Positions 247-16,160 of a stretch of 50,322 nucleotides of DNA are shown piece after piece. Origin of the DNA: Opitutaceae bacterium (lineage in GTDB: Bacteria; Verrucomicrobiota; Verrucomicrobiia; Opitutales; Opitutaceae); NCBI GenBank assembly GCA_003164715.1, contig PLTZ01000084.1, positions 1 to 50,322 on the forward strand, written 5' to 3'. The notes under the pieces were generated by a model. The model had not been told where the DNA came from. It was given only the letters and a program-made list of their open reading frames with translations, and did not search any database. Position 1 is the stretch's first letter, and each line of letters begins with the position of its first letter. A program made the position numbers and the translations under genes.

Positions 247-1665
247 TCATTCCTCGACCCGGTGCCGGCTCACGTTGGCGCCGTCCTCGGGGCGGAGTTG
301 GCGGAAGACGAGCGCGGAGAAGAGCGTCAGGACGCCCACGACGACCAGGGCCCGGTGGATCCCCGAGATCATCTCGCCGGCACTGGCATGGAACCGGTCG
401 GGGATGAAGTAGGCGGTGACGAGCGACGCCATCGCGACCCCGAAGCTGAGCGAGAGCTGCTGCATCGTGCTGGCGATGCTGCTGCCCATGCTGACGTCCT
501 TCTCGGTCAGGTCGGCGTAGACGATCGTGTTGATGGCGGTGAACTGCAGGGACGAGAAGTACCCGAAGCAGAACGCCTGGAGGGCAATCCGCCAGATGGG
601 GGTCGCCGGGTCTATCGTCGCAAAGAGGGCGATCAGCACCCCCATGAACACCGTGTTCGAGGTGAGCACGCGCCTGTAGCCGAAGCGCGTGATGACCCAG
701 GGCATCGTCATCTTCAGGCTCATCGCCGCCAGCGGCTGGGGCATCATGAGCATGCCCGACTTGAGCGGACCGTAGCCGAGGCCGACCTGGTAGAGCAGCG
801 GCAGCAGGAAGGGCATGCCCCCGATGCCTAGCCGCGTGACAAGGCCGCCCGCGACCGACGAGCGGAACGTCCGGATCAGGAACAGGCGAAGCCGCAGCAG
901 GGGGTATTCGACGCTCAGCGAATGCCGCCAGTAGGCCAGGAGCAGCAGGAGCGAGAGCGCGAGCAGGCCAACGATTTCGGCGGAGCCGAGCGTGTGCTCG
1001 CCGAAAATCTCAAGAACGTAGGAGAACAGGGCGATCCCGGAGCCGAATAGCACGAGGCCGACGAAGTCGAGCGGGTCGGTCTTCTCCGCGAAATAATTGG
1101 GCAGGTAGCGGTAGACGAGGTACAGGCCGAGGAAGCCTATCGGGAGGTTGACAAAGAAGATGACCCGCCAGGGGAAGTACTCGACGATGAAGCCGCCGGC
1201 CAGCGGGCCGAGCATGGGCCCGATCAGCGCGGGGATTGAGAAAAAGCTGATCGCCCGGACGAGCTCGGACTTCGGGAAGGTGCGCACCAGCGTGAGCCGA
1301 CCCACCGGCACCATCATGGCTCCGCCGCAGCCCTGCAGGATCCGCGCGGCCACCAGCAGGTGGATGCTGCTCGACAGGCCGCACATCAGCGAACCGAACA
1401 TGAAGACGCCGATCGCCGAGACGAACACGCGGCGCGATCCGAAGCGGTCGGCCACCCACCCGCTGATCGGGATGAAGACGGCGAGGCTGAGCATGTAGCT
1501 GGTGAGCGCCGACTTCATGCTGAGCGGCGCCACGTGCAGGGCCCTGGCGATCGTCGGCACCGCCGTGTTCAGGATCGTCGCGTCGAGCGACTCCATGAAG
1601 AAGGCCACGGCGACCAGCCAGGGGAGGATTCTCTTGACGGTGGCGGTGGGCGCTGGCCGGTGCAT
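247..1665 (-). CDS. MFS multidrug efflux transporter, DHA2 (EmrB/QacA-like) family
   Basis: This 472-residue integral membrane protein probably exports drugs or other hydrophobic compounds using the proton gradient. It starts at ATG 1663-1665 (MHRPAPTATVKRILPWL). The open frame runs 67 codons further upstream, but that part is not membrane-like. Visible hallmarks are an N-terminal helix with ESLDATILNTAVPTIA, motif A (GWVADRFGSRR), motif C (IGPMLGPLAGGFIVEYFPWR) and FFVNLPIGFLGLYLV. These are typical of the 14-helix DHA2 branch, and the length suits it. It stands alone, divergent from the unknown gene at 1877, with no membrane-fusion partner or regulator in view. The 211-base gap to 1877 must carry promoters for both directions, but no convincing -35/-10 pair was found there. 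The substrate cannot be told from sequence. Confidence 0.9.
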   Translation of the reverse strand: MHRPAPTATVKRILPWLVAVAFFMESLDATILNTAVPTIARALHVAPLSMKSALTSYMLSLAVFIPISGWVADRFGSRRVFVSAIGVFMFGSLMCGLSSSIHLLVAARILQGCGGAMMVPVGRLTLVRTFPKSELVRAISFFSIPALIGPMLGPLAGGFIVEYFPWRVIFFVNLPIGFLGLYLVYRYLPNYFAEKTDPLDFVGLVLFGSGIALFSYVLEIFGEHTLGSAEIVGLLALSLLLLLAYWRHSLSVEYPLLRLRLFLIRTFRSSVAGGLVTRLGIGGMPFLLPLLYQVGLGYGPLKSGMLMMPQPLAAMSLKMTMPWVITRFGYRRVLTSNTVFMGVLIALFATIDPATPIWRIALQAFCFGYFSSLQFTAINTIVYADLTEKDVSMGSSIASTMQQLSLSFGVAMASLVTAYFIPDRFHASAGEMISGIHRALVVVGVLTLFSALVFRQLRPEDGANVSRHRVEE

Positions 1666-1876
1666 GCGGTGTGTCAGAATTGGGCTTCGGCCGCATGAAT
1701 GTCGGCAAGCGGAACCGATTGTCAGCCAAATACCCTTGCCGGCCGGCCCTCCCGTGGCAACGCGCGCCGGGCATTCGGTCCCGGGCAACGCTCCAAAATC
1801 GCTTGCATCGTGCCCCCGGCCTAGAGGAGACTCCGGAGCGTCTGTCACCGGACGCGCACCGTGCACTTCTGACTAC

Positions 1877-3649
1877 ATGGACGACGACGCTTCCAAGGCC
1901 AATCCAACCGCGGATTTCAACAAGATCGACCTAAGCCAACTCCAAGGCTTTAGCTTTGGCACTGAATGGGCCAAGGACAAGGAGGCTCCGTCCGAATTCC
2001 GCGATGGCCCCGAGCGTCCGCGCCGCGAGCGCGACGACCGCGGGGGCGGCCCCGGCGGAGCTCCGGACCGCAGGGACCGGAGGGCCTTCAGGAGGCCGGC
2101 GGGCGAGGGGCCCCAGGGCCCGTCGCGCGAGGCCCAGGGCGAGCGGCCGCCACGCAGGGACGCGGGTGACTACGCCCCGTCCCGGCGCAACGGCCCGGCC
2201 ATGGAGCGCCAGGACCGGGGGCCCTACGACAGCCCCTACTTCAACGCGGCGTTCTTCCCCGAGGACACGAGTTTCAACGCCCTGGTGAAGACGATCCGCT
2301 CCTCCGCCCGGACGATCGAGCTCTTCGAGATTGCCCGGACGGTGCTCGCCAAGCCGGAGCGCTTCGTCGTCGTCGTCGTCCGCAAGCCCGGCCCCGCGGG
2401 CGCCCCGGAGGCGGCGCCCCAGCCGATCTACGTCTCGGTCCCCGACGGCCTTCCCTTCGAGTCGGAGGACGCGGCGGTGTCCCACGTGATGAGCGAGTTC
2501 CTGGGCAATTTCTTCGACAGCGGCCTGGTCGAGGTCGATCCGCCCAAGGGGAACTTCCTCGTGATCAACCGGTGCGGCGTGACCGGCGAGCTCCTGGGGC
2601 CGCCGAATTACCACCGCTACGCCCAGATGGTGCAGCAGCACTACGCGACGCGCATCAGCAGGATGCCGTTTGAGGCCTTCCGCTCCCGGATCGAGACGGT
2701 TCGCGACCCCGAGATCGTGAATCAGTGGCTTGAAAAAATGAAGAAGGTCACGCGCTACACGCTGAAGGGCCCGGTGGCCGAGGGTCAGGTGGCGCCGACC
2801 TTCGACAGCCTGGAGGATGCCCGCGCGTACCTGCTCACCAACGCCCGCGACTCCGTCGTGAAGGCCGTCGACAACGCGCGCTTCCACGGCAAGGCCCTTG
2901 AGAAGATGCCGCGGGGAGAGATCCTCATGGCGATCGAAGGCGCCTACGACCGGCAGCTGCGGTTTCCCCTGGACACGGCGAACCAGCTCCGAGGCAGGCT
3001 CAGGCGCGAGCATTTCACGATCTTCAAGAAGGGCTCGAAGGGCGTCTCCTACGTGTGTGCGGTGAAGCGCAAGTTCCGCGTCCCCGGACAGGTGTTCGGG
3101 GAGAGCATCGGCAGCCTGATCGCGTTCATCGAGGAGCATCCGCTGGTGAAGGCGGGCGAGCTCGCCTCGAAGATGCTTGGCATCGCCGCCCCGGCGGAAG
3201 GGGCCTCGGTCACCCCCGAGCAGAAGGAAAAGGTCATGCGCATGCAGGGCGACCTGATCTGGCTCGTGCGCGAGGGCTACGTGACCGAGTTCATCGACGG
3301 CGGGCTTTACGCGCCGCCGGCGATGGTCGAGGCGCGCAAGAAGGAGGTCGAGGCCGAGGAGCACGATCCCGAGAATTTCCCGGAGGCGCCGCCTCCCGCC
3401 GATGCCGTGGGCCAGGCGCCCGAAGCGCCGGCGCCCGAGTCGGCGGCTCCCGAATCCGCACCCCAAGCTGCCGCGCCGCAGGAGGCCCCGGTGGCCGAGG
3501 CGGCTCCTGCCCCGGAAGCGCCTCCGGCGAATGAGGCGGCCCCGGTGGAGTCGACTCCAGCCGAGCCACCCGCGCCAGCCGAGCCACCCGCGCCGGCCGC
3601 CGCACCCGCCTCGGTCGTTTCCCCGCCTACCGAGAGTCCGGCGGCGTAG
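1877..3649 (+). CDS. Conserved-looking protein of unknown function with disordered basic N-terminal and Ala/Pro/Glu-rich C-terminal arms
   Basis: This 590-residue protein starts at ATG 1877 (MDDDASKANPTADFNKIDL). The frame is open further upstream, but that part overlaps the divergent exporter. Residues of roughly 30-110 are rich in Arg, Gly, Pro and Asp (RRERDDRGGGPGG), like RNA-binding or disordered arms. A folded core of about 370 residues follows (from YDSPYFNAAFFPEDTSFNAL to about ENFPEAP). The end of the core (GELASKML ... DLIWLVREGYVTEFIDGGLYAPP) could be a winged helix. The last 90 residues are Ala/Pro/Glu repeats. No catalytic motif was recognised and no function is proposed. No Shine-Dalgarno sequence precedes the start. 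The 3' end overlaps the convergent tsaE by 23 bases. Confidence 0.85.
   Translation: MDDDASKANPTADFNKIDLSQLQGFSFGTEWAKDKEAPSEFRDGPERPRRERDDRGGGPGGAPDRRDRRAFRRPAGEGPQGPSREAQGERPPRRDAGDYAPSRRNGPAMERQDRGPYDSPYFNAAFFPEDTSFNALVKTIRSSARTIELFEIARTVLAKPERFVVVVVRKPGPAGAPEAAPQPIYVSVPDGLPFESEDAAVSHVMSEFLGNFFDSGLVEVDPPKGNFLVINRCGVTGELLGPPNYHRYAQMVQQHYATRISRMPFEAFRSRIETVRDPEIVNQWLEKMKKVTRYTLKGPVAEGQVAPTFDSLEDARAYLLTNARDSVVKAVDNARFHGKALEKMPRGEILMAIEGAYDRQLRFPLDTANQLRGRLRREHFTIFKKGSKGVSYVCAVKRKFRVPGQVFGESIGSLIAFIEEHPLVKAGELASKMLGIAAPAEGASVTPEQKEKVMRMQGDLIWLVREGYVTEFIDGGLYAPPAMVEARKKEVEAEEHDPENFPEAPPPADAVGQAPEAPAPESAAPESAPQAAAPQEAPVAEAAPAPEAPPANEAAPVESTPAEPPAPAEPPAPAAAPASVVSPPTESPAA
3557..3592 (+). repeat. 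Perfect 18-bp tandem duplication inside the Ala/Pro-rich tail
   Basis: Two identical 18-base units lie head to tail at 3557-3574 and 3575-3592, encoding repeated Pro-Ala-Glu-Pro-Pro-Ala in the C-terminal arm of the unknown protein. It is in frame and therefore free to expand or contract without a frameshift. Degenerate copies of the same codon pattern flank it. Confidence 0.8.
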
Positions 3650-5010: not shown

Positions 5011-5858
5011 GAGCCGATCCCCCCGGCGATCATCACGAACGTGTTCAGGTTGAAGAGCGCGTGGGCGACGATGGTCGTGCCGACCGACCCGGTGCGCTCG
5101 TAGGCGAGGCAGAAGACGACCGCGAGCACGGTGAGCGGTACGAGGCTCGGCAGGCCGCCCATATGGTCGCCCCAGGAGACGTGGAGGGCGCCGAAGAGCA
5201 GGGACGTGACCACGATGGCCGCCGAGCGCGGGATCCTCGTCCTGAAGTACCGGAACATGCCGCCCCGGAAGAGGATCTCCTCGCTGACGGGCACCAGAAG
5301 CGTGGCGACCAGGACAAGGGAGAGCTTCACCCCTGTCGAGCTCGTGTTCTGGAGGATGTCCACCATGTCCTGCCTCTCGGCCGGCAGGCCGGCCTTCTCG
5401 AGGAAATAGCTCCACGCGAAGCTCGTTCCGTCCACGAGGGGCAGGGCGATTAGGAACGTGACCAGCCCGCTCTTGAGCGCCGGGGCGGCAAAGGGGCCGC
5501 GGCCGCCGAGCTGCGCCTTGAGCCCGTACATGAGGAAGAACCCCGCGAGCCCGAGCAGGATCCCGAGGTGCATCACGGCGCCGCCCGCGACCATCATGGC
5601 GTCGGGGCCGAAGCGGCTGTGGCGAAGGAGAAACCCGGCGGCGGCGCTCAGCCCGGTCGTCCCGACGAACGCGAAGCACAGGAAGCAGGCGAAGTCGATC
5701 GGCGCCAGGCGCCATTCGGTGAGGGCCACCACTCGCGCCTGCCTCGCCTTGGGGCTTAGCGCCTGGGTCCAGACGAGCCACGCACCCAGAATGATGAGCC
5801 CTAACTCGAAGCCGGCGGCCGCGACCGCGGTCCAGGTTGTCTCATCTGGCAGGGTCAC
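5007..5858 (-). CDS. CPBP-family intramembrane glutamic endopeptidase (type II CAAX-like)
   Basis: This 283-residue polytopic membrane protein belongs to the ABI/CPBP (Rce1-like) intramembrane protease family. The motifs are complete: VSEEILFRGGMF (EExxxR), SLLFGALHVSWG (FxxxH) and VAHALFNLNTF (HxxxN). About seven hydrophobic segments are visible, starting with AAGFELGLIILGAWLVWTQ. The start chosen is GTG 5856-5858, which overlaps the pyrC TGA as GTGA. The longer open frame to 5984 adds only pyrC antisense sequence. It is translationally linked to pyrC upstream and thiL downstream. Bacterial members act in peptide maturation or immunity, but nothing here points to a particular substrate. Confidence 0.88.
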   Translation of the reverse strand: MTLPDETTWTAVAAAGFELGLIILGAWLVWTQALSPKARQARVVALTEWRLAPIDFACFLCFAFVGTTGLSAAAGFLLRHSRFGPDAMMVAGGAVMHLGILLGLAGFFLMYGLKAQLGGRGPFAAPALKSGLVTFLIALPLVDGTSFAWSYFLEKAGLPAERQDMVDILQNTSSTGVKLSLVLVATLLVPVSEEILFRGGMFRYFRTRIPRSAAIVVTSLLFGALHVSWGDHMGGLPSLVPLTVLAVVFCLAYERTGSVGTTIVAHALFNLNTFVMIAGGIGS

Positions 5859-7141
5859 GACGCCGCGAGCGGGAAGACGATGCGGCCGTCGACGATCGTT
5901 GTCTTGACGCGGCCGCGCAGCGTCCGGCCGTTCCAGGGCGAGTTGCTCGACTTGCTGTAGCCCTTCTTGGCGTCGTAGGTCCACGCCTCGTCAGGGTCGA
6001 AGATGCAGATGTCGGCGGGGGCGCCGCTCGCGAGCGTGCCCGCCGGCAGGCCGAGGACGCCCGCGGGCTTGCGCGTCATCAGGTCCAGCGCCTTGCGCAG
6101 CGGGAACCGGCTCTGGCGCACCAGGACCTCGAGCACGACGGCGAGCGCCGTCTCGAGGCCGATGATGCCGTTCGGGGCGTAGTCGAACTCCTTGTCCTTC
6201 TCGTAGTCGGTGTGCGGGGCGTGGTCCGTCGAGATGCAGTCAAGGGTCCCGTCCCTCAGGCCCACGATCAGCGCCCTGCGGTCCGCCTCGGTCCTCAGGG
6301 GGGGGTTCATCTTGAAGTTCGTGTCATAGGTGGCCAGGGCCTCGTCGGTGAGCGCGATGTGGTGAGGGGTCGCCTCCGCGGTGACGCAAACGCCGTCCGC
6401 CTTCGCCCGGCGGACGATCTCGACCGAGAGGGCCGAGGAGATGTGCTGCATGTGGATGTGGGCCCCCGTGTACCGCGAGAGGATCACGTTGCGCGAGACG
6501 ATCAGATCCTCAGCCGCGTTGGGCCAGCCGCGCAGCCCGAGGCGGATGGACACGTTGCCCTCGTTCATGACGGCGCCCTCGGTCATGGACTGGTCCTGGC
6601 AGTGGTCCATGACCGGCAGGCCGAACATCTTGGCGTACTCGATCGCCCGGCGCATGAGCTCGTTGGACTGCACGCAGTCGCCGTCGTCGGTGATGGCCAC
6701 GACCCCGGCCCGCTTCAGGGAGCCGATCGGGGCCAGGTTCTCCCCCTTCATCCCAATCGTGATGCACCCGGTCGGCAGCACCTTGACCAGCGAGTCGCGG
6801 CGCACGGCGTCCAGGATGAACTGGATCGTCCCCGCGTTGTCCGCGGCCGGCGCCGTGTTGGGCATGCAGACCACGGTGGTGAAGCCCCCGGCCGCGGCGG
6901 CCCGGGAGCCCGTCGCGATCGTCTCCTTCTGCGTCTGGCCCGGTTCGCGGAAGTGCACGTGGATGTCGACCAGCCCCGGCGCGGCGACAAGCCCCCGGGC
7001 GTCGATCTTCCTCGCCCGACGGCGGTCCGCCGCGGACAGGCGCGGGACGATCTTGCCGTCGAGCGAAAAGAGGTCGCCGACAGAGTCGCGCCGGCTGGCG
7101 GGGTCGATGACCCGGGCGTTCCTTATCCAGAGTGCGGGCAT
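5855..7141 (-). CDS. pyrC: Dihydroorotase
   Basis: PyrC closes carbamoyl-aspartate to dihydroorotate, the third step of pyrimidine synthesis. The protein has 428 residues, matching the longer type I dihydroorotases that pair with PyrB in Gram-positive-like pyr operons. Metal ligands appear as DIHVHFREPG (His61, His63), AHIHMQHIS and STDHAPHT. The substrate loop VVCMPNTAPAADN is present. It follows pyrB by 9 bases and overlaps the downstream CPBP gene by four. The preserved HxH and Asp sites argue for an active enzyme rather than one of the inactive PyrC-like partners of ATCase. Confidence 0.95.
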   Translation of the reverse strand: MPALWIRNARVIDPASRRDSVGDLFSLDGKIVPRLSAADRRRARKIDARGLVAAPGLVDIHVHFREPGQTQKETIATGSRAAAAGGFTTVVCMPNTAPAADNAGTIQFILDAVRRDSLVKVLPTGCITIGMKGENLAPIGSLKRAGVVAITDDGDCVQSNELMRRAIEYAKMFGLPVMDHCQDQSMTEGAVMNEGNVSIRLGLRGWPNAAEDLIVSRNVILSRYTGAHIHMQHISSALSVEIVRRAKADGVCVTAEATPHHIALTDEALATYDTNFKMNPPLRTEADRRALIVGLRDGTLDCISTDHAPHTDYEKDKEFDYAPNGIIGLETALAVVLEVLVRQSRFPLRKALDLMTRKPAGVLGLPAGTLASGAPADICIFDPDEAWTYDAKKGYSKSSNSPWNGRTLRGRVKTTIVDGRIVFPLAAS

Positions 7142-7150
7142 GGTCGCGGG

Positions 7151-8098
7151 TTATTCGGTGGAGGAGATGACCTGCTCGGGCTGGTTTCCCGCGCAGAGGT
7201 AGAGGACCGCCATGCGCACCGCGATTCCGTTGGAGACCTGCTCCAGGATCACGCTGCGCTCGCCGTCGGCAAGCTCGCTGTCGATCTCCACGCCTCGGTT
7301 GATCGGACCGGGGTGCATGATGATCGCCTTCGGGTTGAGCCACGACGCACGGGTCTTATTGAGGCCGAACATGCTCGTGTACTCGCCGAGGGAGGGGAAG
7401 TGGCGGTGCCCCTGGCGCTCGTGCTGGATGCGCAGGAGCATGACGACGTCCGCGTCGGCCAGCGCCGACTTGAGGTCGTGCGAGACCTGAGCGCCGATGG
7501 CGGTGAAGCCGTGGGGGACCAGCGTGGACGGGCCGACGAGCGTCACCGCTGCGCCCATCTTCGTGAGCGCGTAGATGTTCGAGCGCGCCACGCGGCTAAA
7601 GAGGATGTCGCCCAGAATCGCGACCTTGCGGCCCTTGAGCGGCCCGAGGTGCTCCTTCATCGTGAACGTGTCGAGCAGGCCCTGTGTCGGGTGCTCGTGC
7701 GCGCCGTCGCCCGCGTTGATCACCGGGATGTCCAGAATCTTGCTCAGATAGAGCGGCGATCCGGCCGCCGAGTGGCGGATCACGATCATGTCGGCGTTGA
7801 GCGCCTGGATGTTCTCGGCCGTGTCGCGCAGGGTCTCGCCCTTGGTCGTCGACGAGCTCGCCGCGTCGAAGGCGATCACGTCGGCGCTCAGGCGCTTCGC
7901 GGCCATGTCGAACGCCATGCGCGTGCGCGTGCTCGGCTCGAGGAAGAGGTTGACGATCGTCTTGCCGCGGAGCGCGGGCACCTTCTTCACACTGCGCTTG
8001 AGAATGCTCTTGAAGGCGGAGGCGGTGGCGTGGACCTGCTCAATCTCCCGCAGGCTCAGTTCCTCGATCGTGATCAGGTGTCGGCGTGTCCAGGTCAT
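7151..8098 (-). CDS. pyrB: Aspartate carbamoyltransferase catalytic subunit
   Basis: PyrB joins carbamoyl phosphate and aspartate, the committed step of pyrimidine synthesis. The 315-residue protein carries the carbamoyl-phosphate motif EPSTRTRMAF (residues 54-63), the KGETLRDT loop with the lysine contributed across the trimer, and EHPTQGLLDTF. The ATG overlaps the pyrR TGA as ATGA (8095-8098). No pyrI regulatory subunit is present, so this is probably a simple trimer or a PyrB-PyrC complex. The gene order pyrR-pyrB-pyrC is the same as in many bacteria. Confidence 0.96.
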   Translation of the reverse strand: MTWTRRHLITIEELSLREIEQVHATASAFKSILKRSVKKVPALRGKTIVNLFLEPSTRTRMAFDMAAKRLSADVIAFDAASSSTTKGETLRDTAENIQALNADMIVIRHSAAGSPLYLSKILDIPVINAGDGAHEHPTQGLLDTFTMKEHLGPLKGRKVAILGDILFSRVARSNIYALTKMGAAVTLVGPSTLVPHGFTAIGAQVSHDLKSALADADVVMLLRIQHERQGHRHFPSLGEYTSMFGLNKTRASWLNPKAIIMHPGPINRGVEIDSELADGERSVILEQVSNGIAVRMAVLYLCAGNQPEQVISSTE

Positions 8099-8646
8099 GG
8101 AATGGAGACGGCGCGGGCCGCCCGCGGCGCGCGCGGCCGGATCTCGATGCGGTCGAGCGCGGGGTCGTCCCGGAGCGAGACGAGCACGTCCTCGTCCTCC
8201 GCGGCGCTGACGGTGGTGCCCGTGAAGTCGGCGACGACGGGGAGCCTGCGGCTGCCCCGGTCAACCAGCACCGCGAGCTCCACCTTGGCCGGCCTGCCGT
8301 GGTCGAAGAGCTCGTCAAGCGCCGCCTTCACGGTGCGCCCCGTGAAGAGGACGTCGTCGACGAGGAGAACGGTCGCCCCGTTGACGTCGCCCGGCAGGAG
8401 CGTCGGCGTGAACTCCTTCGGGATAGGGTGGCGGCCGAGGTCGTCGCGGTGGAAGGAGATGTCGAGGTCGCCGACCCGCTTGATCCCCAGGCGGGCGCCG
8501 AGGCGCCTAGCGAGCGGGATGCCGCCGTTCGCGATGCCGAGAAGGAGGAGCCCCTTGGCCCTGCCGTGGCGGGCCTCAATGGCGGCCGCAAGCCGCTCTA
8601 TCGCGGCGTGAACCTCCCGGAAGCCGATGGTCTTGGGCGGAGTCAC
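8095..8646 (-). CDS. pyrR: PyrR: pyrimidine operon regulator / uracil phosphoribosyltransferase
   Basis: PyrR is a PRPP-binding protein that in many bacteria senses UMP and binds pyr mRNA, with weak uracil phosphoribosyltransferase activity. The 183-residue protein shows the PRPP loop VLLVDDVLFTGRTV, the LLLLGIANGGIPLARRL segment and DISFHRDDL. A GTG at 8644-8646 was chosen as start, and a TTG one codon upstream is equally possible. No Shine-Dalgarno sequence precedes either. Only 49 bases separate it from the helicase stop. A classical PyrR-binding attenuator is therefore not evident upstream of pyrR, and the pyrR-pyrB junction is a four-base overlap. It may regulate elsewhere or act mainly as an enzyme. 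Confidence 0.92.
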   Translation of the reverse strand: MTPPKTIGFREVHAAIERLAAAIEARHGRAKGLLLLGIANGGIPLARRLGARLGIKRVGDLDISFHRDDLGRHPIPKEFTPTLLPGDVNGATVLLVDDVLFTGRTVKAALDELFDHGRPAKVELAVLVDRGSRRLPVVADFTGTTVSAAEDEDVLVSLRDDPALDRIEIRPRAPRAARAVSIP

Positions 8647-8664
8647 CAAGCCAAGTACTGCATG

Positions 8665-8695: not shown

Positions 8696-11020
8696 TCACC
8701 CGGCGGAGCCGAGCCACGCCGCCAGGTCGTCCTGCTCGAGGATCCGCCGGCCCGAGCGGTACTCCGGGGCGAGGAGGCGCTCGTAGCCCGGCTCGGCGAA
8801 GCGGCGGCAGTGCAGGATCACCCGCGCGCTCTGGCCCGGCGCCCGCACCAGGCGGCCGAGCGCCTGGTTCACCTTCTGGATCCCCGGGATCCTGTAGACG
8901 CGGTCGAACGCGGCATCGCGCCCTGCGCCGGCCAGGGCCGCGAGCCTGGCCCTCTGGACGGGGTTGACCTCGGGCAGCGCGGGGCCGACCACCATGGCGT
9001 GGGTCACCTTCCCCCCGAGCAGGTCTATGCCCTCGGCGAACCCCGACCCGAGGACGAGGAAGAGGGCCCGGCCGGCGCCGAGCGCGTCGCCAATCCAGGC
9101 GCTCTGCGCGGAGAGCTCGCTGCGCTTGGGCTGGAGGGACGCCGCGTCAACGCGCTCGGCCACCGCCTCGGCGTACGCGTAGCTCGGGAAGAACACGGCG
9201 ATGGGCGCTCCCGCTCCGGCGGAGCGGTGGAGCGCCTCGACGGTCTCGGCCGTCGCCTCGAGGTGGCGCCGGCGGTGCTGGAAGGTCGTGTCGACCCGCA
9301 GGTCGACCGCCATGTCGTAGGCGCCGTCCCGCCAAGGGGTCGACGCCCGGATCGGGATCAGCGGCCCGCACGCGCAGCTCTCCTCGAAGCGGTCGACGGG
9401 ACCCGGAGTCGCCGTCGCGAAGATGACCCCCCCGAAGTCGCGCAGCGCCGCCCCGATGACGGGTGCGGCGTCCAGGCACGTGATCGAGAGGAGCCCGTCG
9501 TGCGGGCTCCACCACAGGCGCGGCAGCTCGATCGACCCGATCTGGTCCGCCACGGACGGCATCTTCCAGATGAGGCCCGACACCTGCGGGCCGAGCTCCG
9601 CGTAGTCCAAGGGGAACGCCCCCGCGCCCTCGGCAAGGCCGCAGAGGCGCTCGCGCGCGTCCTCGATGTCCGCCGGGGCGAGCCCGCCCGACCTCCGGAG
9701 GGAACCCAGGAACCGGGTCCAGTCCTCCCACCGCGAGACCCAGGGAGGCTGCGCTCGGGCGCCCCGAAGCGCCTCGCAGACGAGGCGCGCGTCGTCCGCC
9801 GAGAGGGCGTGCGAGTGGGTGTCGGCGGCCCGGGACGGGAGGTTGTGGGCCTCGTCGATCACCAGGAGCGTCCGCGCCGGGTCAAAGCCGGGCCTGTCGT
9901 AGAAGAGGCCGCGGCTCTCCGGGGAGAAGACGTAGTTGTAGTCGCCTATCCACACGTCGTTGAACGTGAGGGCGGCGCGCGTGATCTCGTACGGGCAGAT
10001 CCGGGCGCCGACCCCCGCGTTTCGGAGCGAGACGAGGTCCCTCGGCTGGCCGTCCATGAGGTAGAAGCGCGAGAGCCCGCTTGCGGGCCAGCGCTTCTCG
10101 GCGCCGTCCAGGTAGGCGCAGGCCTCGCGGACGCACTGGAACACCGAGTTGACGCAGTGCTCCGCCTTGTTGCGCACGTGCCACGCGGCGACCGGGGCGC
10201 CCGGCCCCAGGTCCGCGCCGGGCTCGGTCATCGCGCGCAGCGTCTCGGCCACGTGGAGCTGGCCGGTCGACTTGCCGGTGAGGTAGAGGACCCGGTCGAA
10301 GGCGCCGTCCCTGAGCTCGCCGAGCGCGCGCTCGAGGAGGACCCCCGTCTTGCCGAAGCCGGTCGGCGCCTCGAGGAGGACCGCGGACCGGCCGTTGCGG
10401 ACACAGCCGGCGAGCTCCGAGGCCGCCTCCCGCTGGCCGTGGCGCGGGGCCGCGAACGCCGGCCGGAACTTGAGGTGGAGCAGGCGCTCCCGCGCGCGCA
10501 GCCGCAGCTCGAGAAACTCGGCGATCCGGTCGAGCTGGGCGTCGAGCAGCCGCTCGTCGGCGGGGCCGAGGCGCACCGTCTGGGCGAGGCCGGTGTCCGC
10601 CTCGACAAAGACCAGCTCGCAGCCCTCGCCGGCGCCCCGGAGGGCCGCGTACGCCGCCGCCTGCACGAAGTAGGCCGGGTAGTCCCCCCTGAGCTCGGCT
10701 TCGGGGGCGGGCAGGGCGCGGCTCACAGTCTTTATCTCGCGCAGGACGGTCCCGCCGCCGCAGCGGACGACCTGGTCGATCCTGCCCGTGAGCGCGACGG
10801 TCCACCCGCGCCGCGCAAGCTCGCCCTCGACCGCCACCTCGAAGTCGGCGTCGGCGCCGTCGGCGAGCGCCTGCGCCCGGAGCTCGCCGTGCCAGCGCGT
10901 GCCCAGCTGCGCGCGCCAGAGCCCGCCCGCCCCGCCGGAAGAGCCGAGCGGCCCGATCGAGAAGTCGGAGAGGTCCCCGACGCTCAGCGCTACGCGCCGC
11001 TCTTCCAGGTCGTACCTCAC
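8696..11020 (-). CDS. XPD/DinG-type superfamily 2 helicase with N-terminal Cas4/RecB-like nuclease domain
   Basis: This 774-residue protein starts at GTG 11018-11020, overlapping the recO TGA as GTGA. The N-terminal part has PD-(D/E)xK features: GRIDQV (Asp82), LREIKTV (Glu95, Lys97) and QAAAYAAL (the QxxxY motif, residues 120-124). The helicase part has Walker A (EAPTGFGKT, near 217-225) and a DEAH box (LLVIDEAHNLPSRA). A cysteine set (HCVNSVFQCVREAC ... ARICPYE) matches the iron-sulfur insertion of XPD/DinG proteins. The C-terminal motor has VLGSGFAEGIDLLGG and a final QALGRLVRAP (motif VI). It probably unwinds DNA 5' to 3' and may also cut it. Linkage to recO suggests DNA repair, which is inference. 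Confidence 0.85.
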   Translation of the reverse strand: MRYDLEERRVALSVGDLSDFSIGPLGSSGGAGGLWRAQLGTRWHGELRAQALADGADADFEVAVEGELARRGWTVALTGRIDQVVRCGGGTVLREIKTVSRALPAPEAELRGDYPAYFVQAAAYAALRGAGEGCELVFVEADTGLAQTVRLGPADERLLDAQLDRIAEFLELRLRARERLLHLKFRPAFAAPRHGQREAASELAGCVRNGRSAVLLEAPTGFGKTGVLLERALGELRDGAFDRVLYLTGKSTGQLHVAETLRAMTEPGADLGPGAPVAAWHVRNKAEHCVNSVFQCVREACAYLDGAEKRWPASGLSRFYLMDGQPRDLVSLRNAGVGARICPYEITRAALTFNDVWIGDYNYVFSPESRGLFYDRPGFDPARTLLVIDEAHNLPSRAADTHSHALSADDARLVCEALRGARAQPPWVSRWEDWTRFLGSLRRSGGLAPADIEDARERLCGLAEGAGAFPLDYAELGPQVSGLIWKMPSVADQIGSIELPRLWWSPHDGLLSITCLDAAPVIGAALRDFGGVIFATATPGPVDRFEESCACGPLIPIRASTPWRDGAYDMAVDLRVDTTFQHRRRHLEATAETVEALHRSAGAGAPIAVFFPSYAYAEAVAERVDAASLQPKRSELSAQSAWIGDALGAGRALFLVLGSGFAEGIDLLGGKVTHAMVVGPALPEVNPVQRARLAALAGAGRDAAFDRVYRIPGIQKVNQALGRLVRAPGQSARVILHCRRFAEPGYERLLAPEYRSGRRILEQDDLAAWLGSAG

Positions 11021-11634
11021 GGGATCACGATCTCGGTGCTGGCGCCGAGGTAGGCCTCGAGCCTCCGACGTATCCGGGCGACGCGGGCGGCGCTCGCGTC
11101 CTGCTCGCTCAGGCGGCGGCCGAGGACGGCGGCCGCGACCCCGCGGTCCTCCTCGGTGAGGGAGGGGAGCCACTCCTGCTTCACGGGGTACCCCTCGTCG
11201 CGCGCGAAGACGTACAGGCTCTTCAGGTGCACAATGTCCGGGCGGACGCCGGCGCAGAAGGCGTCGAGCGCGGCCCGCAGCAGCTGCGCCACGGCCTCGC
11301 GGCTCTCCTCGTGCACGGGGTTGCGCCCGATGACCGCGACCAGCGCCGAGGCGAACCGGAGCGCGTCGTAGCTTGCGCCGATCGCCGCGCGCCGCGTGGT
11401 GATGCGGACCTCCCTCACGAACCAGGTCCTCCCCTGGTTTCTGCTTTCCAGCATCGCCGAGACCTCGTCAAAGAGGTCCGGCGAGACGTGGGAGGGCGAC
11501 AGCCTGCGCGGGACGCGCTGCAGGGCGACGAGGCTGCCGTGCTCGGCCGAGAAGAGCCCGAAGGTCTGGAAGGCGTCCGACGGGGGGCGCTTCTCGATCA
11601 CGAACGCCTCGGTCGTGAGCGTCTGTCCGGGCAC
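11017..11634 (-). CDS. recO: RecO-like DNA repair protein
   Basis: This 205-residue protein, with a GTG start at 11632-11634, resembles RecO, which loads RecA on SSB-coated gaps with RecR. The N-terminal 80 residues read like the RecO OB-fold (TTEAFVIEKRPPSDAFQTFGLFSAEHGSLVALQRVPRR). The helical remainder includes VHLKSLYVFARDEGYPVKQEW, comparable to the conserved 'LL..GY.P' region. It is shorter than the usual 230-260 residues, and the zinc-knuckle cysteines found in many RecO proteins are absent. It overlaps the nuclease-helicase by four bases, supporting a joint repair role. The assignment is moderate, as RecO is poorly conserved. Confidence 0.65.
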   Translation of the reverse strand: MPGQTLTTEAFVIEKRPPSDAFQTFGLFSAEHGSLVALQRVPRRLSPSHVSPDLFDEVSAMLESRNQGRTWFVREVRITTRRAAIGASYDALRFASALVAVIGRNPVHEESREAVAQLLRAALDAFCAGVRPDIVHLKSLYVFARDEGYPVKQEWLPSLTEEDRGVAAAVLGRRLSEQDASAARVARIRRRLEAYLGASTEIVIP

Positions 11635-11646
11635 CGGGGGCGGGGG

Positions 11647-12327
11647 CTAGCTCTCCTCGCGGGACTTCGGGGTTGCGGCGGCGGGCCAGCTCGGGACGAC
11701 CGCGCCGCCCGAGATGATCATCTTCATCCCGTCGCCGACCGCCATGTCCAGCTCGACCACCTCGCTCCTCGGCAAGACGAGAAGAAAGCCGCTCGTCGGG
11801 TTGGGCGTCGTGGGCACGAAGACGGTCCAGGACTCCCTGCCGACCCGGCCCTGGGCCTCGCCCTGGACCGTGTTGGTGAGGAACCCGATCGTCCAGCACC
11901 CCTTCCGCGGGAACTCCACGAGGACCACCTTGTTGAACATGTGGCCCCTCTGGGAGCTGAACGTGTTCACGATCTGCCTGACGGTGTTGTAGACGGCGCT
12001 AACACCCGGGATCGACTGGATGAAGCGGTCGCCGACGCTGAAGAAGAACTTCCCGAAGACGTAACGCGACACGTAGCCGAGCCCCGTCACGAGGGCCAGG
12101 ACGATCAGCGTGGCGAGGATGGACCAGACCGCGTCGAGGCCGGGCCGGTCCCTGAGCGAGTTGGGCACCAGGTAGAGGAAGAGCCACTTGAAGTTGCCGC
12201 CCACGAAGTCGATGATCTTGCTGAAGATCCAGACGGTCAGGCAGAGCGGCGCGACGAGGATCACGCCCGAGAAGAACGCGTTTCGCAGGGTGACGTAGCG
12301 GGAGGAGGAGGGATCGGCTTCGGCCAT
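11647..12327 (-). CDS. DUF502-family membrane protein
   Basis: This 226-residue inner-membrane protein has two clear helices: FFSGVILVAPLCLTVWIFSKIIDFVGG near the N-terminus and SILATLIVLALVTGLGYVSRYVFG. A soluble domain with VLVEFPRKGCWTIGFLTNT and VFVPTTPNPTSGFLLVLPRSEV follows. These are the signature segments of the DUF502 family, whose molecular function is unknown. The start is ATG 12325-12327, and the gene lies between ybeY (35-base gap) and recO (12-base gap). Nothing in the sequence suggests a specific ligand or reaction. Confidence 0.88.
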   Translation of the reverse strand: MAEADPSSSRYVTLRNAFFSGVILVAPLCLTVWIFSKIIDFVGGNFKWLFLYLVPNSLRDRPGLDAVWSILATLIVLALVTGLGYVSRYVFGKFFFSVGDRFIQSIPGVSAVYNTVRQIVNTFSSQRGHMFNKVVLVEFPRKGCWTIGFLTNTVQGEAQGRVGRESWTVFVPTTPNPTSGFLLVLPRSEVVELDMAVGDGMKMIISGGAVVPSWPAAATPKSREES

Positions 12328-12362: not shown

Positions 12363-12827
12363 CTACGCCAGCTTGAAGCTTGGAACGGCCGCGGAGTGCT
12401 CCAAGAGGCGCATGGCCCGGGCCTCGGCCCTGCGCATGGCGCGCTTGGACGCCGGCCCTGTGTCGTCGTAGCCAGCCAGGTGGAGCCAGCCGTGGACGAC
12501 ATAGAGCGTGATCTCCCTAGAGAGGCGGGCGCGGGCGCGCCCGCACCGGCGGGCCGCCGCGTCGACCGAAACGCAGATCTCGCCGGCGCAGCCGTGCGCC
12601 GCGTCTCCCCCGAACGTGATGACGTCGGTGGGGGACCTGTCGCCGAGGAACCGCGCATGGAGCCGCGCCAGGGCCGGGTCGCCCAGGAAGGCGACCGAGA
12701 GAGAGCCCTCCGGGCATCCGCCCCCGAACGCCCCGGCGTGGGCGTCGAGCAGGCCGATCGCCGCCCTCAGGGCCCTGCGGTCGAAGCGCAGGCGGGCGCG
12801 GCGGTTGGCGACGTCGACCGGGCGCAT
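12363..12827 (-). CDS. ybeY: YbeY endoribonuclease (rRNA maturation factor), with altered metal motif
   Basis: YbeY is a zinc metalloprotein needed for 16S rRNA 3' maturation and ribosome quality control. The 154-residue protein has SPTDVITFGGD, GEICVSVDAA and the motif VVHGWLHLAGYDD. The family motif is HGxLHLxGYDH. Here the third histidine is replaced by Asp122, while His112 and His116 remain, so metal binding may differ. ATG 12825-12827 has GAAGGG upstream and was chosen. A TTG at 12837-12839 overlaps the upstream stop as TTGA, like other junctions in this operon, and would add four residues. Its position after phoH and the 7TM-HD gene is conserved in many bacteria. Confidence 0.88.
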   Translation of the reverse strand: MRPVDVANRRARLRFDRRALRAAIGLLDAHAGAFGGGCPEGSLSVAFLGDPALARLHARFLGDRSPTDVITFGGDAAHGCAGEICVSVDAAARRCGRARARLSREITLYVVHGWLHLAGYDDTGPASKRAMRRAEARAMRLLEHSAAVPSFKLA

Positions 12828-12835
12828 GGCGCCCT

Positions 12836-15175
12836 TCAAGCGTTCGCCTCGTTCGGCGGCTCGGCGGGCGTCGCGTAGGCGACCCGGGAGTGCAGCATGT
12901 TGAGCAGCGTGAAGGTGAAGCTGTTCTTGATCTTCGCCAGGTCCTCGAAGGTGAGCGGCGCCTCGTCGAGCTGGCCGTCCGCGACGCGCTCGGCGACCAT
13001 CCGGTCGATCAGCGCGCCGAGCTTCTCGGCCGTGATCGTGCGGATCGAGCGGGTCACGGCCTCGACCGCGTCGGCAAGCGACACGACGGCGCTCTCCTTG
13101 AACTGCGGCTTGGGCCCCTCGTAGCGGAACGGCGCGTCGGGGACGGCCGGCGGCTCCGCCCCGGGGAAGGGCGACTGGGACAGGGCCATGGCGCGCTCGT
13201 AGAAGAACTTCACAAGCGTGGTGCCGTGGTGCTGGCGGATCACGTCGATCACCGCGCGGGGAAGGTGGTGGCGGTGCGCCATGTCCACGCCGTCGGCCAC
13301 GTGCTGGCGGATGATGGCCGCCGAGACCACGGGGTCCTTCTCGTTGTGGGGGTTGCCGCTGCTGCGCTGGTTCTCCGTGAAGAAGGCCGGGTTGGCCGTC
13401 TTGCCGATGTCGTGGAAGAGCGCGCAGGCGCGGGCCAGCAGCGGGTTGGCGCCGATCGCGTTGCAGGCGTTCTCGGAGAGCTGGGCGACGACGAGCGAGT
13501 GGTGGTAGGTCCCGGGCGCCTCAAGCTGCATCCTGCGCAGGAGGGGATGGTTGAAGTCGGTGAGCTCAAGGAGCGTGATGTCGGTCGTCCGCTTGAAGAG
13601 CGCCTCGAGGACCGGCAGCAGGCCGACGACGGCGACGCCCGTCAGCAGCCCGGTCACCAGGCCCGCGCCCATCTGCCAGGCGAGCGTCTCGAGCGGCGTT
13701 TGCTGCGCGATGCCGATCAGCGCGGCGAACGCGGCCACGGTGAGGCCCCCCATCCCGGCGGCGCTGACGACGCGGCCGCGCTGGCGCGCCTCGCGGCAGC
13801 CGTAGATCGCGACCATCGAGGCGAGGAACGTGAGGACGAGCAGGTCGAGGCGGTTGCCGTAGATGACGCCGGTGAAGATCGAGATCAGGAGCGCCATGAA
13901 GATCGCCGAGCCGGCGTCGATGAGGATCGCGACGATCAAGGGGGCAAGCGCGGTCGGCGCCAGGTAGGGCAGGGCGGAGGCCCACGCCGGGTCGCGCAGG
14001 AAGAGCTCGGCCCCGCCGACCGTGTAGACGACGCGCACCAGGGCCAGGTTGAAGATGACGACCAGGGCCAGGAGGCCCAGGCTCACGTTGCTCGCCAGGG
14101 TCTCGGGGTCCTCGAGCCTGACGTAGATGATGGAGGCGAGCACCATCGCGAGCACGAGGAGCACGCGCCCGAACAGCTCGAGGCCGTCGCCCAGCTGCGC
14201 CGCGCCGCCCTCGAGGGCGGCCGTGCGGTACGCGGTGGCCATCTCGTACTGGTCCTCGGTGACCCGGTCCCCCGCGTTGATGATCGTCCGGCCGGCCTCC
14301 ACGCGCACCGTCACGGGCTTTACCTTGGCCATCAGGCCGGCCTCGCGGCGCGCCGCCGCGGCCCGGTCGAACACGAGGTTCGGCTGGACCCCGTTGCGAA
14401 AGAGCCGGAAGAGCGCGTGCGCGGCGGGCCCGGGCACGCCCTCCGCGGCGAGGCTCACCCTGAGGAAGGTCAGCGCGTCCTCCATGGACTGGACCGGCCG
14501 CGACGCCGTGCCCCCTGAGGGCCGCTCGACCTCGAACATGACCACGGCCTCGGGGCCGCCCCCGGAGCCCGAAATGTCGTGGACGCCCTCGCTGTAGACC
14601 TGCCTGAGCGCCGCGAACCCGTTCTCGAAGAGCGCGGCGCGCGCCGGCGCGTCGCCCGCGGTCAGGATCGCGCCGAGGTCGTCCGCATTCGTCTCGTAGG
14701 GCCCGCGCGCGTTGAACTCCTCGGCCAGGGCGGCGAGCGCCTTGCGCCGGTTGAAGAAGAGGGCCGTCGGGTCCGGGTGCGCGGCCTCGAAGGCGCCCAG
14801 CCTGCCGAGGAGGTCGCGGGCGGCGCCCTCGAAACGCTCGAGCGGCGCCGTGTCCAGCCGGTAGATGGGAGGCAGCCCGACCAGGCGCTGCTCGCGCTCG
14901 GCCTTCGTCCGGGTGGCGCTCACGTAGGCGAACGGGAACCCGGCCACGATCCGCACGGGGGCGATCTGGCTCGGCAGCACCGGCAGGTCGAGCACCCGCA
15001 TCCCGGCCGAGCTGACGAGTACGATCGCCGCCACCGTCACGATGAAGATCAGCCCCGCCACGAGGCGGCTCCGGTCCAGGAAGTCGCGAAGGCCCGAGCC
15101 CGTCGCCGACTTCGGGTCGCCCCGGTGGGCGCCGAGCCCGCCGACGAGAAGCCTGAGCTGGTTGCGGACGGACAT
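12836..15175 (-). CDS. 7TM-HD family phosphohydrolase (PgpH-like, candidate c-di-AMP phosphodiesterase)
   Basis: This 779-residue membrane protein starts at ATG 15173-15175, one base after the phoH stop codon. It has an N-terminal helix (LVAGLIFIVTVAAIVLVSSAG) and a large extracytoplasmic domain (roughly residues 60-330, 7TMR-HDED type). A block of about seven helices follows. The C-terminal HD domain carries YHHSLVVAQLSENA, LFHDIGKT (His588, Asp589) and HHLPRAVIDVIRQHHG. In Listeria the homologue PgpH hydrolyses c-di-AMP. That activity is inferred here from family membership, as no diadenylate cyclase is in the window. The order phoH - 7TM-HD - ybeY is a widespread arrangement. Confidence 0.9.
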   Translation of the reverse strand: MSVRNQLRLLVGGLGAHRGDPKSATGSGLRDFLDRSRLVAGLIFIVTVAAIVLVSSAGMRVLDLPVLPSQIAPVRIVAGFPFAYVSATRTKAEREQRLVGLPPIYRLDTAPLERFEGAARDLLGRLGAFEAAHPDPTALFFNRRKALAALAEEFNARGPYETNADDLGAILTAGDAPARAALFENGFAALRQVYSEGVHDISGSGGGPEAVVMFEVERPSGGTASRPVQSMEDALTFLRVSLAAEGVPGPAAHALFRLFRNGVQPNLVFDRAAAARREAGLMAKVKPVTVRVEAGRTIINAGDRVTEDQYEMATAYRTAALEGGAAQLGDGLELFGRVLLVLAMVLASIIYVRLEDPETLASNVSLGLLALVVIFNLALVRVVYTVGGAELFLRDPAWASALPYLAPTALAPLIVAILIDAGSAIFMALLISIFTGVIYGNRLDLLVLTFLASMVAIYGCREARQRGRVVSAAGMGGLTVAAFAALIGIAQQTPLETLAWQMGAGLVTGLLTGVAVVGLLPVLEALFKRTTDITLLELTDFNHPLLRRMQLEAPGTYHHSLVVAQLSENACNAIGANPLLARACALFHDIGKTANPAFFTENQRSSGNPHNEKDPVVSAAIIRQHVADGVDMAHRHHLPRAVIDVIRQHHGTTLVKFFYERAMALSQSPFPGAEPPAVPDAPFRYEGPKPQFKESAVVSLADAVEAVTRSIRTITAEKLGALIDRMVAERVADGQLDEAPLTFEDLAKIKNSFTFTLLNMLHSRVAYATPAEPPNEANA

Positions 15176-15176
15176 C

Positions 15177-16160
15177 TTAGGAGCCTGCGCGGCTGTCGGC
15201 CCCGGCCGTCGGGTGCTTGTAGCGGTCGTAGGCCTCGACGATGCGCTGCACCAGCGGGTGGCGCACGACGTCCCCGGCGGTGAACGTGTGGAAGACGATC
15301 CCGGGGACGTCCTTGAGGATGTGCTGCACCTCGAGCAGCCCGGACACCTTGGAGCGCGGCAGGTCAATCTGGGTGACGTCGCCCGTCACGACCATCCTCG
15401 AGTCCTCGCCCAGCCGGGTGAGGAACATCATCATCTGCTCGGGGGTCGTGTTCTGCGCCTCGTCGAGGACGACGAACGCACGCGAGAGCGTGCGGCCGCG
15501 CATGTAGGCGAGCGGGGCGATTTCGATCACGCCCTTCTCGGTCAGCCGCACGACCTCCTCCGGGTCGAGCATGTCGTGGAGCGCATCGTAGAGGGGACGC
15601 AGGTAGGGAAGGATTTTCTCGCGGAGGTCGCCCGGCAGGAACCCGAGGGCCTCGCCGGCCTCCACCGCGGGCCTTGTGAGCACAATCCGTTCCACCTCGT
15701 GGTTGAGGAGGGCCGAGACGGCGGCCGCCATCGCCAGGTAGGTCTTGCCGGTGCCTGCCGGGCCTATCCCGATGACGATCGGCTGGCGCAGGACGGCCTG
15801 GAGGTACTCCTTCTGGCCGATGGTCTTCGGCACGACGCTCCTGCGGTTCGTCGCGATTACGAGCGGCTCGTCGAGGAGCGCCTGCCACCGGTCGGCCTCG
15901 CCTTTCGCGAACGAGTCCACGAGGCGGGCGAAGTCGGGCGTGCGGATGGTCATCCCCTGGCTCCGGGCGGCGTTCAGGAACGCGAAGAACTCCTCGGCGC
16001 GCGCCAGGGGCTCCTGGGCGGCCTCGATCTTGAGCCAGTCCTCGCGCGTCACCAGCTTGACGCCGAGCGCCTGCTCGGCATGGGCCAGGTTCTCGGCCTT
16101 GCCCGCGTAGAGCTGGCTCAGGTGCCGCGGGCTCTGGAAATGGAGCGTCTTAGCGGGCAC
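15177..16160 (-). CDS. PhoH-family ATPase
   Basis: This 327-residue protein is a PhoH-like P-loop ATPase of the single-domain bacterial type often encoded beside ybeY. The N-terminal 100 residues resemble the family's KH-like and linker part. Walker A is GPAGTGKTYLAMA (residues 133-145) and Walker B is FVVLDEAQNTTPEQMMMFLTRLG. VVTGDVTQIDLPRSKVSGL is the characteristic downstream block. PhoH proteins are linked to RNA metabolism and phosphate starvation in some bacteria, but the exact role is unsettled. It follows the HIT gene by 10 bases and precedes the 7TM-HD gene by one base, so it is co-transcribed. Confidence 0.93.
   Translation of the reverse strand: MPAKTLHFQSPRHLSQLYAGKAENLAHAEQALGVKLVTREDWLKIEAAQEPLARAEEFFAFLNAARSQGMTIRTPDFARLVDSFAKGEADRWQALLDEPLVIATNRRSVVPKTIGQKEYLQAVLRQPIVIGIGPAGTGKTYLAMAAAVSALLNHEVERIVLTRPAVEAGEALGFLPGDLREKILPYLRPLYDALHDMLDPEEVVRLTEKGVIEIAPLAYMRGRTLSRAFVVLDEAQNTTPEQMMMFLTRLGEDSRMVVTGDVTQIDLPRSKVSGLLEVQHILKDVPGIVFHTFTAGDVVRHPLVQRIVEAYDRYKHPTAGADSRAGS

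Follow-up and report, generated by a model that had tools for sequence, protein, structure and literature searches.

EndoDinG beside a predicted divergent recO in an Opitutaceae genome: a recurrent yet breakable gene pairing, and repeated loss of iron-sulfur ligands

The stretch of DNA considered here, called the window throughout, comprises 50,322 nucleotides (nt) of contig PLTZ01000084.1 (assembly GCA_003164715.1) from an Opitutaceae bacterium, and is contig C69 of the 92 contigs that make up the 3.79-Mb source genome. At 8696..11020, on the minus strand like the other window features described below, lies a gene for a protein of 774 amino acids (aa) in which a PD-(D/E)XK nuclease is joined to an XPD/DinG-like iron-sulfur (Fe-S) helicase, the architecture known as EndoDinG. 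The N-terminal RecB-type nuclease domain occupies approximately residues 1-181 (10478..11020), with a set of conserved residues and a Pfam PDDEXK_1 match over residues 57-173, and the helicase part occupies approximately residues 188-774 (8699..10459), where it is recognized by Pfam DEAD_2 and Helicase_C_2, by its motifs and by XPD folds. Within the helicase part are Walker A (residues 218-225, 10346-10369), the Fe-S insert (residues 283-347, 9980..10174) and DEAH (residues 389-392, 9845-9856). The GTG start codon overlaps by 4 nt (11017..11020) the TGA stop codon of a putative divergent recO directly upstream (11017..11634, 205 aa), and the joint reads CCCGTGAGG. The mechanical open reading frame (ORF) extends to 11173, but sequence conservation of EndoDinG starts at 11020. 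The closest named relatives of the protein belong to Opitutaceae metagenome-assembled genomes (72-78% identity), and the nuclease-helicase reading frame is confirmed as real.

Relatives of the protein were gathered from 80 loci, of which 63 (L032-L093 and L099) are separated from the remaining 17 in a tree and are referred to here as the Opitutales side; the titles of several of these say only Verrucomicrobia or Verrucomicrobiota. The window protein and 51 of the 80 loci, thinned by hand so that near-copies and short sequences were left out, yielded an alignment of 52 proteins that includes records named Opitutales-side, Clostridia, Lokiarchaeia and Bdellovibrio. The nuclease residues of the window protein are H44, E61, D82, E95, K97, Q120 and Y124; the first six are identical in every aligned row and Y124 in 51 of the 52. 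DEAH is kept throughout (52/52) and Walker A is conserved with small variants, and this conservation of nuclease and helicase motifs is far above chance. Eleven further Verrucomicrobiota proteins from outside Opitutales also retain the nuclease residues, one of them with S aligned to E61. Among Pfam models, Helicase_C_2 (9.9e-19) and DEAD_2 (1.4e-12) match the window protein over their cut-offs, and PDDEXK_1 (cut-off 22) scores 20.0 bits in one search and 22.3 bits in a six-frame search, with 33 of the 52 alignment members matching it at E<=0.01 (best 7e-8). An earlier note on this DNA had placed an Asp / Glu-x-Lys / QxxxY set at residues 80-125 and, further along, a DEAH helicase with a CPYE-type cysteine cluster, and both are there: the former as D82, E95, K97, Q120 and Y124, the latter as Walker A, DEAH and the insert cysteines C289, C296, C301 and C342, the last of these in CPYE. 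The fusion of a RecB-type nuclease to an XPD/DinG-like helicase that it described also stands, while its label of Cas4 is too specific for a domain of the wider RecB/Cas4/Dna2/EXO5 type. The cysteine cluster seen belongs to the helicase insert; C87 and C134 are in the nuclease part, the domain in which Cas4 carries its Fe-S cysteines.

The architecture was named EndoDinG in section 3.7 of a 2025 review (PMC11981726), with Bdellovibrio bacteriovorus HD100 as its representative, and that section gives the Bdellovibrio protein as an endonuclease on the basis of unpublished data. The window protein has the features published there, namely an N-terminal PD-(D/E)XK domain with H, E, D and E-x-K, an XPD/DinG motor (MD1/MD2) with Walker A, DEAH and a C-terminal helicase domain, and an Fe-S insert with the four-cysteine CCCC motif. 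Judged by these sequence features it is a member of the published subgroup, and the fusion itself is not new, in keeping with the earlier note, which had stated that such nuclease-helicase fusions exist. By title, the review alone uses the term EndoDinG in this sense among the matches listed. A full-length relative has also been solved, Finegoldia magna DinG (PDB 9KQH, a crystal structure with single-stranded DNA and adenylyl imidodiphosphate (ADPNP)), which agrees with the window protein in sequence profile and fold along nearly its entire length; a 16-protein profile from the order aligns with the 9KQH chain over residues 7-759 (E 1e-80), and the 52-row profile matches it at E 1.6e-183, although its identity to the window protein is approximately 21%. 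The fold closest to the AlphaFold2 model of EndoDinG (predicted local distance difference test score (pLDDT) 91.2, predicted template-modelling score 0.91) is that of 9KQH, with XPD structures next in line. The earlier note had allowed that the E-x-K and QxxxY residues might fail to assemble into an active site, and as far as alignment and model reach this is not borne out: the profile alignment pairs H, E, E-x-K, Q and Y with their counterparts in 9KQH, and the nuclease domain is for the most part modelled with confidence, a weak stretch being residues 21-40. At the D82 position the deposited chain A of 9KQH has Ala, natural or engineered, and D82 is Asp in all 52 aligned proteins. A literature search found no paper on the 9KQH structure, and the combination of 'Finegoldia magna' and 'DinG' gave no paper on this enzyme by title among the matches listed.

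Comparison with better known systems helps to place the enzyme. Archaeal and eukaryotic XPD (PDB 9p55, 4a15 and the XPD of TFIIH) share the helicase motor and the Fe-S insert, but the sequence match starts at approximately residue 192 or later and XPD is without the N-terminal nuclease. In AddAB and RecBCD a superfamily 1 (SF1) UvrD motor is followed by a C-terminal RecB nuclease, whereas the window protein has an XPD-type motor and an N-terminal nuclease. More generally, the AddAB, Dna2 and Cas4 nucleases operate with an SF1 motor or with none. They have RecB-type PD-(D/E)XK chemistry in common with EndoDinG and are its fold neighbours according to the review, which places the Fe-S site of EndoDinG elsewhere (PMC11981726). 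In ExoDinG, including Staphylococcus aureus DinG (PDB 8zef, 9ii8), a nuclease domain likewise precedes the DinG motor, but it is a DnaQ-type 3'-5' exonuclease rather than PD-(D/E)XK, as PMC11981726 and the abstract of PMC12345164 describe and as the NCBIfam title, which names DnaQ, also indicates. Second short ORFs in two Opitutales-side loci (L066 18157-18489 and L071 16365-16736) score approximately 109-124 bits against the EndoDinG profile and are possibly fragments of another copy. Among viral contigs scanned with sequence patterns, five stretches matched a pattern and none was confirmed as an EndoDinG relative.

The identity of the upstream neighbour is recovered from its fold and its relatives. 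The gene at 11017-11634 itself matches no RecO model of Pfam or NCBIfam, nor TIGR00613, and TIGR00613 (cut-off 48.7 bits) run over the whole source genome gave no match at E<=1. Its AlphaFold model (pLDDT 93.8) has the oligonucleotide/oligosaccharide-binding (OB) fold and the helical domain of RecO, and its 11 best fold matches in the PDB are all RecO, the first at E 3e-8 and with template-modelling (TM) scores up to 0.78. RecO_N is matched by 19 of the 33 proteins in the neighbour's alignment (at E values of up to 1, the lowest being 5e-5), a 12-row profile of the neighbour has Thermus RecO as its top PDB hit, though a weak one (E 0.027), and a 12-gene profile of TIGR00613-type RecO from other hosts recovers, at E<=0.01, 38 of the 39 Opitutales-side RecO genes found with the Opitutales profile. 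By its modelled fold and the RecO_N matches of its relatives, the gene is called a divergent RecO. RecR and RecF are both above cut-off in the source genome, which therefore holds RecF, RecR and a divergent RecO. The GTGA overlap with a RecO-like gene noted previously is confirmed at the joint, with a neighbour whose model folds as RecO.

The pairing of the two genes recurs within the order. In 132 genomes searched at E<=0.001, the helicase was matched in 82 and RecO in 102; three weak helicase matches (G149, G221, G243) were left out, giving 79, as were eight weak or partial RecO matches (G212, G225, G228, G236, G249, G262, G281, G293), giving 94, and 73 genomes hold both genes. With one piece kept for split matches and distances taken between profile match edges, recO lies upstream of EndoDinG on the same strand at less than 400 nt in 25 of the 73 and at 0.8-2.4 kb in a further 10, and these 35 close cases span 11 family codes. 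RecO was seen in 39 of the 63 Opitutales-side EndoDinG loci. Where 3.5 kb or more of sequence is available upstream, recO is within 3.5 kb of EndoDinG in 33 of 50 loci. In the comparison of locus flanks that gives this count, 12 RecO loci with short flanks were set aside, and the set includes loci fetched because the two genes were apart. A 4-nt start-stop overlap is allowed in six of the 39 loci, and a 1-nt overlap in nine others. Some named loci are from the same assemblies as counted genomes (L036/G060 and L060/G163, for example), so the genome count and the locus-flank count are not independent. EndoDinG and recO are genuinely paired, repeatedly so within the order and more strongly than EndoDinG is with pyr genes, yet the pairing is breakable. 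In L053 (9044-9895), L060 (8824-9654) and L065 (9161-9994) the two are separated by a gene whose product, approximately 280 aa long, has a signal-peptide-like start, and in L123 and L124 they are on the same strand approximately 6.3 kb apart, perhaps an intermediate state of separation.

Adjacency to recO in many Opitutales members is a difference from EndoDinG as described in the text of the review, where the linkage in Opitutales or in the phylum is undescribed, and it is a modest addition to that account; the main text contains no 'verrucomicrobi', 'opitut' or 'finegoldia', and 'reco' appears only within other words (recognized, recombination) among the occurrences shown (PMC11981726). No recO-DinG link in Verrucomicrobia is apparent from titles and the starts of abstracts among the matches listed, a search in which the whole word 'verrucomicrobi' could hardly match.

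Eleven Verrucomicrobiota EndoDinG loci from outside Opitutales were also compared. That the linkage is absent outside the order proved wrong: the Opitutales RecO profile is too narrow, detecting the gene in three of these 11 genomes, and TIGR00613, which detects it in all 11 (10 over the cut-off), places RecO before EndoDinG in one of them, G004, a member of another family and the sole genome of that family in the set. Here RecO (L162 182-898) lies directly upstream of EndoDinG (895-3417), with an ATGA overlap at 895-898 or, as is also possible, a later EndoDinG start. The RecO matches RecO_C at 4.1e-11 and TIGR00613 at 44.2 bits against the cut-off of 48.7, the second gene has Helicase_C_2, DEAD_2 and PDDEXK_1, and its product shares 31% identity with the window protein over 610 aligned positions of the helicase part. 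Unlike the Opitutales form, the G004 RecO has a CxxC...CxxC pair. The loci of G093 and G165 were left out of judgement because they are at contig starts. A 12-gene RecO profile had no match in any of the 17 loci not titled Verrucomicrobiota, and is not exhaustive, because some Opitutales RecO genes (for example that of L078) are missed by it.

A second departure from the published description concerns the Fe-S ligands. According to the review, EndoDinG conserves the CCCC motif, and loss is found in CasDinG, CasDinG-HNH and some ExoDinG (PMC11981726). In the tree, which covers 75 proteins, omits the Fe-S columns and leaves aside six of the 80 loci for a matched protein of fewer than 690 residues, the 58 Opitutales-side rows divide, over the region of window residues 284-348, into 37 with at least four insert cysteines, seven with three, and 14 with none or one (L065, L070, L076, L079, L080, L082-L086, L089, L090, L092, L099). 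At least four are present in all 17 tree rows outside the Opitutales side, and four or five in the 11 other Verrucomicrobiota rows, so that none or one is found in 14 of 58 Opitutales-side rows versus 0 of 28 elsewhere. Those cysteine-less rows that are present in the alignment keep their nuclease and helicase motifs. By parsimony the loss class changes five times, with at least three changes forced by starred branches, a rough number because the tree is quick and has long branches. Fe-S ligand loss in Opitutales-side EndoDinG is undescribed in the text of the review, whose supplementary cysteine counts by order may hold an Opitutales case, and its repetition in several lineages is a modest addition to what is known of the enzyme.

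The two genes are embedded in a longer run that recurs whole or in part in other loci. Upstream of recO are genes for a DUF502 protein (11647..12327, Pfam DUF502 4.2e-33), the steadiest neighbour of recO, the YbeY endoribonuclease (12363..12839, Pfam YbeY 1.1e-20) and a PgpH-like 7TM-HD protein (12836..15265, Pfam 7TM-7TMR_HD, 7TMR-HDED and HD). The next gene downstream of EndoDinG encodes a phosphoribosyltransferase (8095..8649, Pfam Pribosyltran 2.5e-22), which we take to be PyrR-like and which follows EndoDinG in several loci, and beyond it are aspartate carbamoyltransferase-like PyrB (7151..8098, Pfam OTCace_N and OTCace) and dihydroorotase-like PyrC (5855..7141, Pfam Amidohydro_1 and DHOase). 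In other bacteria, too, recO is often found near ybeY.

One explanation, which we hold to be slightly better than an even chance, is that EndoDinG is a 5'-3' motor with a nuclease for the exposed strand, made together with RecO, that opens and trims DNA at forks and gaps before RecFOR loads RecA. As in other members of the XPD/DinG family, the motor would be expected to move 5'-3' on single-stranded DNA and to open duplex, flaps or bubbles, and the N-terminal PD-(D/E)XK nuclease would cut the strand thus exposed. EndoDinG and RecO probably come from one message, and EndoDinG would most likely act at stalled forks and at gaps left behind by replication, trimming or opening the DNA there, upon which RecO with RecR and RecF may load RecA on the resulting single strand. 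Of this account, the family identity, the conserved active-site residues, the RecO fold of the neighbour, the presence of RecF and RecR and the recurring gene linkage are shown by the data, and polarity, cutting, co-transcription and joint action with RecO are predictions. As regards a shared DNA-repair job, the linkage is a hint and no proof. The dedicated repair or gap-processing machine with RecO that the earlier note envisaged goes beyond what a pairing found in 11 family codes and once outside the order, often broken and less steady than that of recO with DUF502, can establish.

A number of observations weigh against such a partnership. In the 73 genomes with both genes, recO and EndoDinG are on different contigs in 35, some of which may be assembly breaks, and far apart on one contig in three. 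Stretches of approximately 18-20 kb in several genomes show each gene without the other, and 21 of the 94 genomes with recO lack a strong EndoDinG match, some of these 21 being incomplete. The survey of recO neighbourhoods that the earlier note had proposed finds the linkage in 35 of 73 Opitutales genomes and in one of nine testable loci of other Verrucomicrobiota; the remaining eight, each with more than 5 kb upstream and no RecO by position, are without it. Among the 17 loci not titled Verrucomicrobiota, TIGR00613 finds RecO in 12 genomes, in none of the 12 within the EndoDinG locus, and linkage is absent from all eight testable loci (a TIGR00613 RecO in the genome and more than 8 kb upstream). 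Where recO has no EndoDinG within 3 kb, DUF502 is kept in 11 of 13 loci, in one of which (L123) EndoDinG is 6.3 kb downstream. A strict dependence of the two genes on one another is rejected, since recO is also seen on its own and the pair comes apart.

The strongest alternative is that EndoDinG is simply carried in an old gene run, PgpH-YbeY-DUF502-RecO-EndoDinG-(phosphoribosyltransferase-PyrB-PyrC), and acts independently of RecO, for example in replication-stress or flap processing. We give this reading a substantial chance, short of even. It is a near-equal explanation because recO mostly keeps DUF502 where EndoDinG is not close; over all loci with a readable flank, recO adjoins DUF502 in 44 of 48. 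In keeping with inheritance, EndoDinG precedes pyrB without recO nearby in five of the 35 loci with both flanks readable, and the gene for the approximately 280-aa protein splits the pair in three loci. Inheritance accounts less readily for the closer attachment of EndoDinG to recO (33/50 within 3.5 kb) than to pyrB (9/38 within 5.5 kb), for close linkage across 11 family codes, and for the one locus outside the order with the same gene order and an ATGA overlap. The linkage found in G004 raises the odds of a partnership a little and lowers those of mere inheritance, and the partnership with RecO is placed a little ahead of inherited gene order.

Other explanations fare far worse. As EndoDinG joins a motor to a RecB-type nuclease, it might replace AddAB or RecBCD as the end-resection nuclease-helicase of the lineage; this was set aside as very improbable, since the source genome carries, on contig C26 (L115 2517-8526), adjacent and overlapping genes for an AddA-like protein of 1046 aa (UvrD helicase and PDDEXK_1) and an AddB-like protein of 964 aa (PDDEXK_1 being its sole match at the threshold used), and EndoDinG is therefore not its sole RecB-type nuclease with a motor. 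A DinG of anti-phage defence or of type IV CRISPR systems is suggested by a match to the PADLOC typeIV_DinG profile (1.5e-55), but the match spans residues 188-751, that is, the shared motor only, and the gene sits among housekeeping genes and recurs with them, so that a defence role was judged unlikely in the extreme, although no search aimed at CRISPR arrays or genes or at defence islands was made. That the neighbour is some other OB-fold protein and no functional RecO, as the lack of a direct match to any RecO model might suggest, is hardly credible given its 11 RecO fold matches, the RecO_N matches in 19 of 33 relatives, the recovery of 38 of 39 Opitutales-side genes by the 12-gene profile, and the absence of any other TIGR00613 match from a genome in which RecR and RecF are present.

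Overall, the observation is confirmed, the enzyme is one already named, and there are two modest additions, the recO linkage in the phylum and the repeated loss of Fe-S ligands. As the RecO of this genome shows, a survey by profile may count RecO as absent from Opitutales where it is only divergent. The biological role of EndoDinG is not settled in the literature found, including the text of PMC11981726, and the recO-linked lineage provides a testable pathway in RecFOR gap repair, while the cysteine-less proteins of the Opitutales side offer naturally occurring variants for studying the role of the cluster in XPD-type motors. A combined view, in which the EndoDinG of Verrucomicrobiota, and of Opitutales most of all, is a partner of RecO in gap repair, encoded on the same message in two distant branches, and in which several side lineages run the motor without an Fe-S cluster, is tentative and on balance unlikely. 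If true, the cysteine-less EndoDinG would be another cluster-free XPD-type motor beside CasDinG and some ExoDinG, with both its nuclease and its motor intact.

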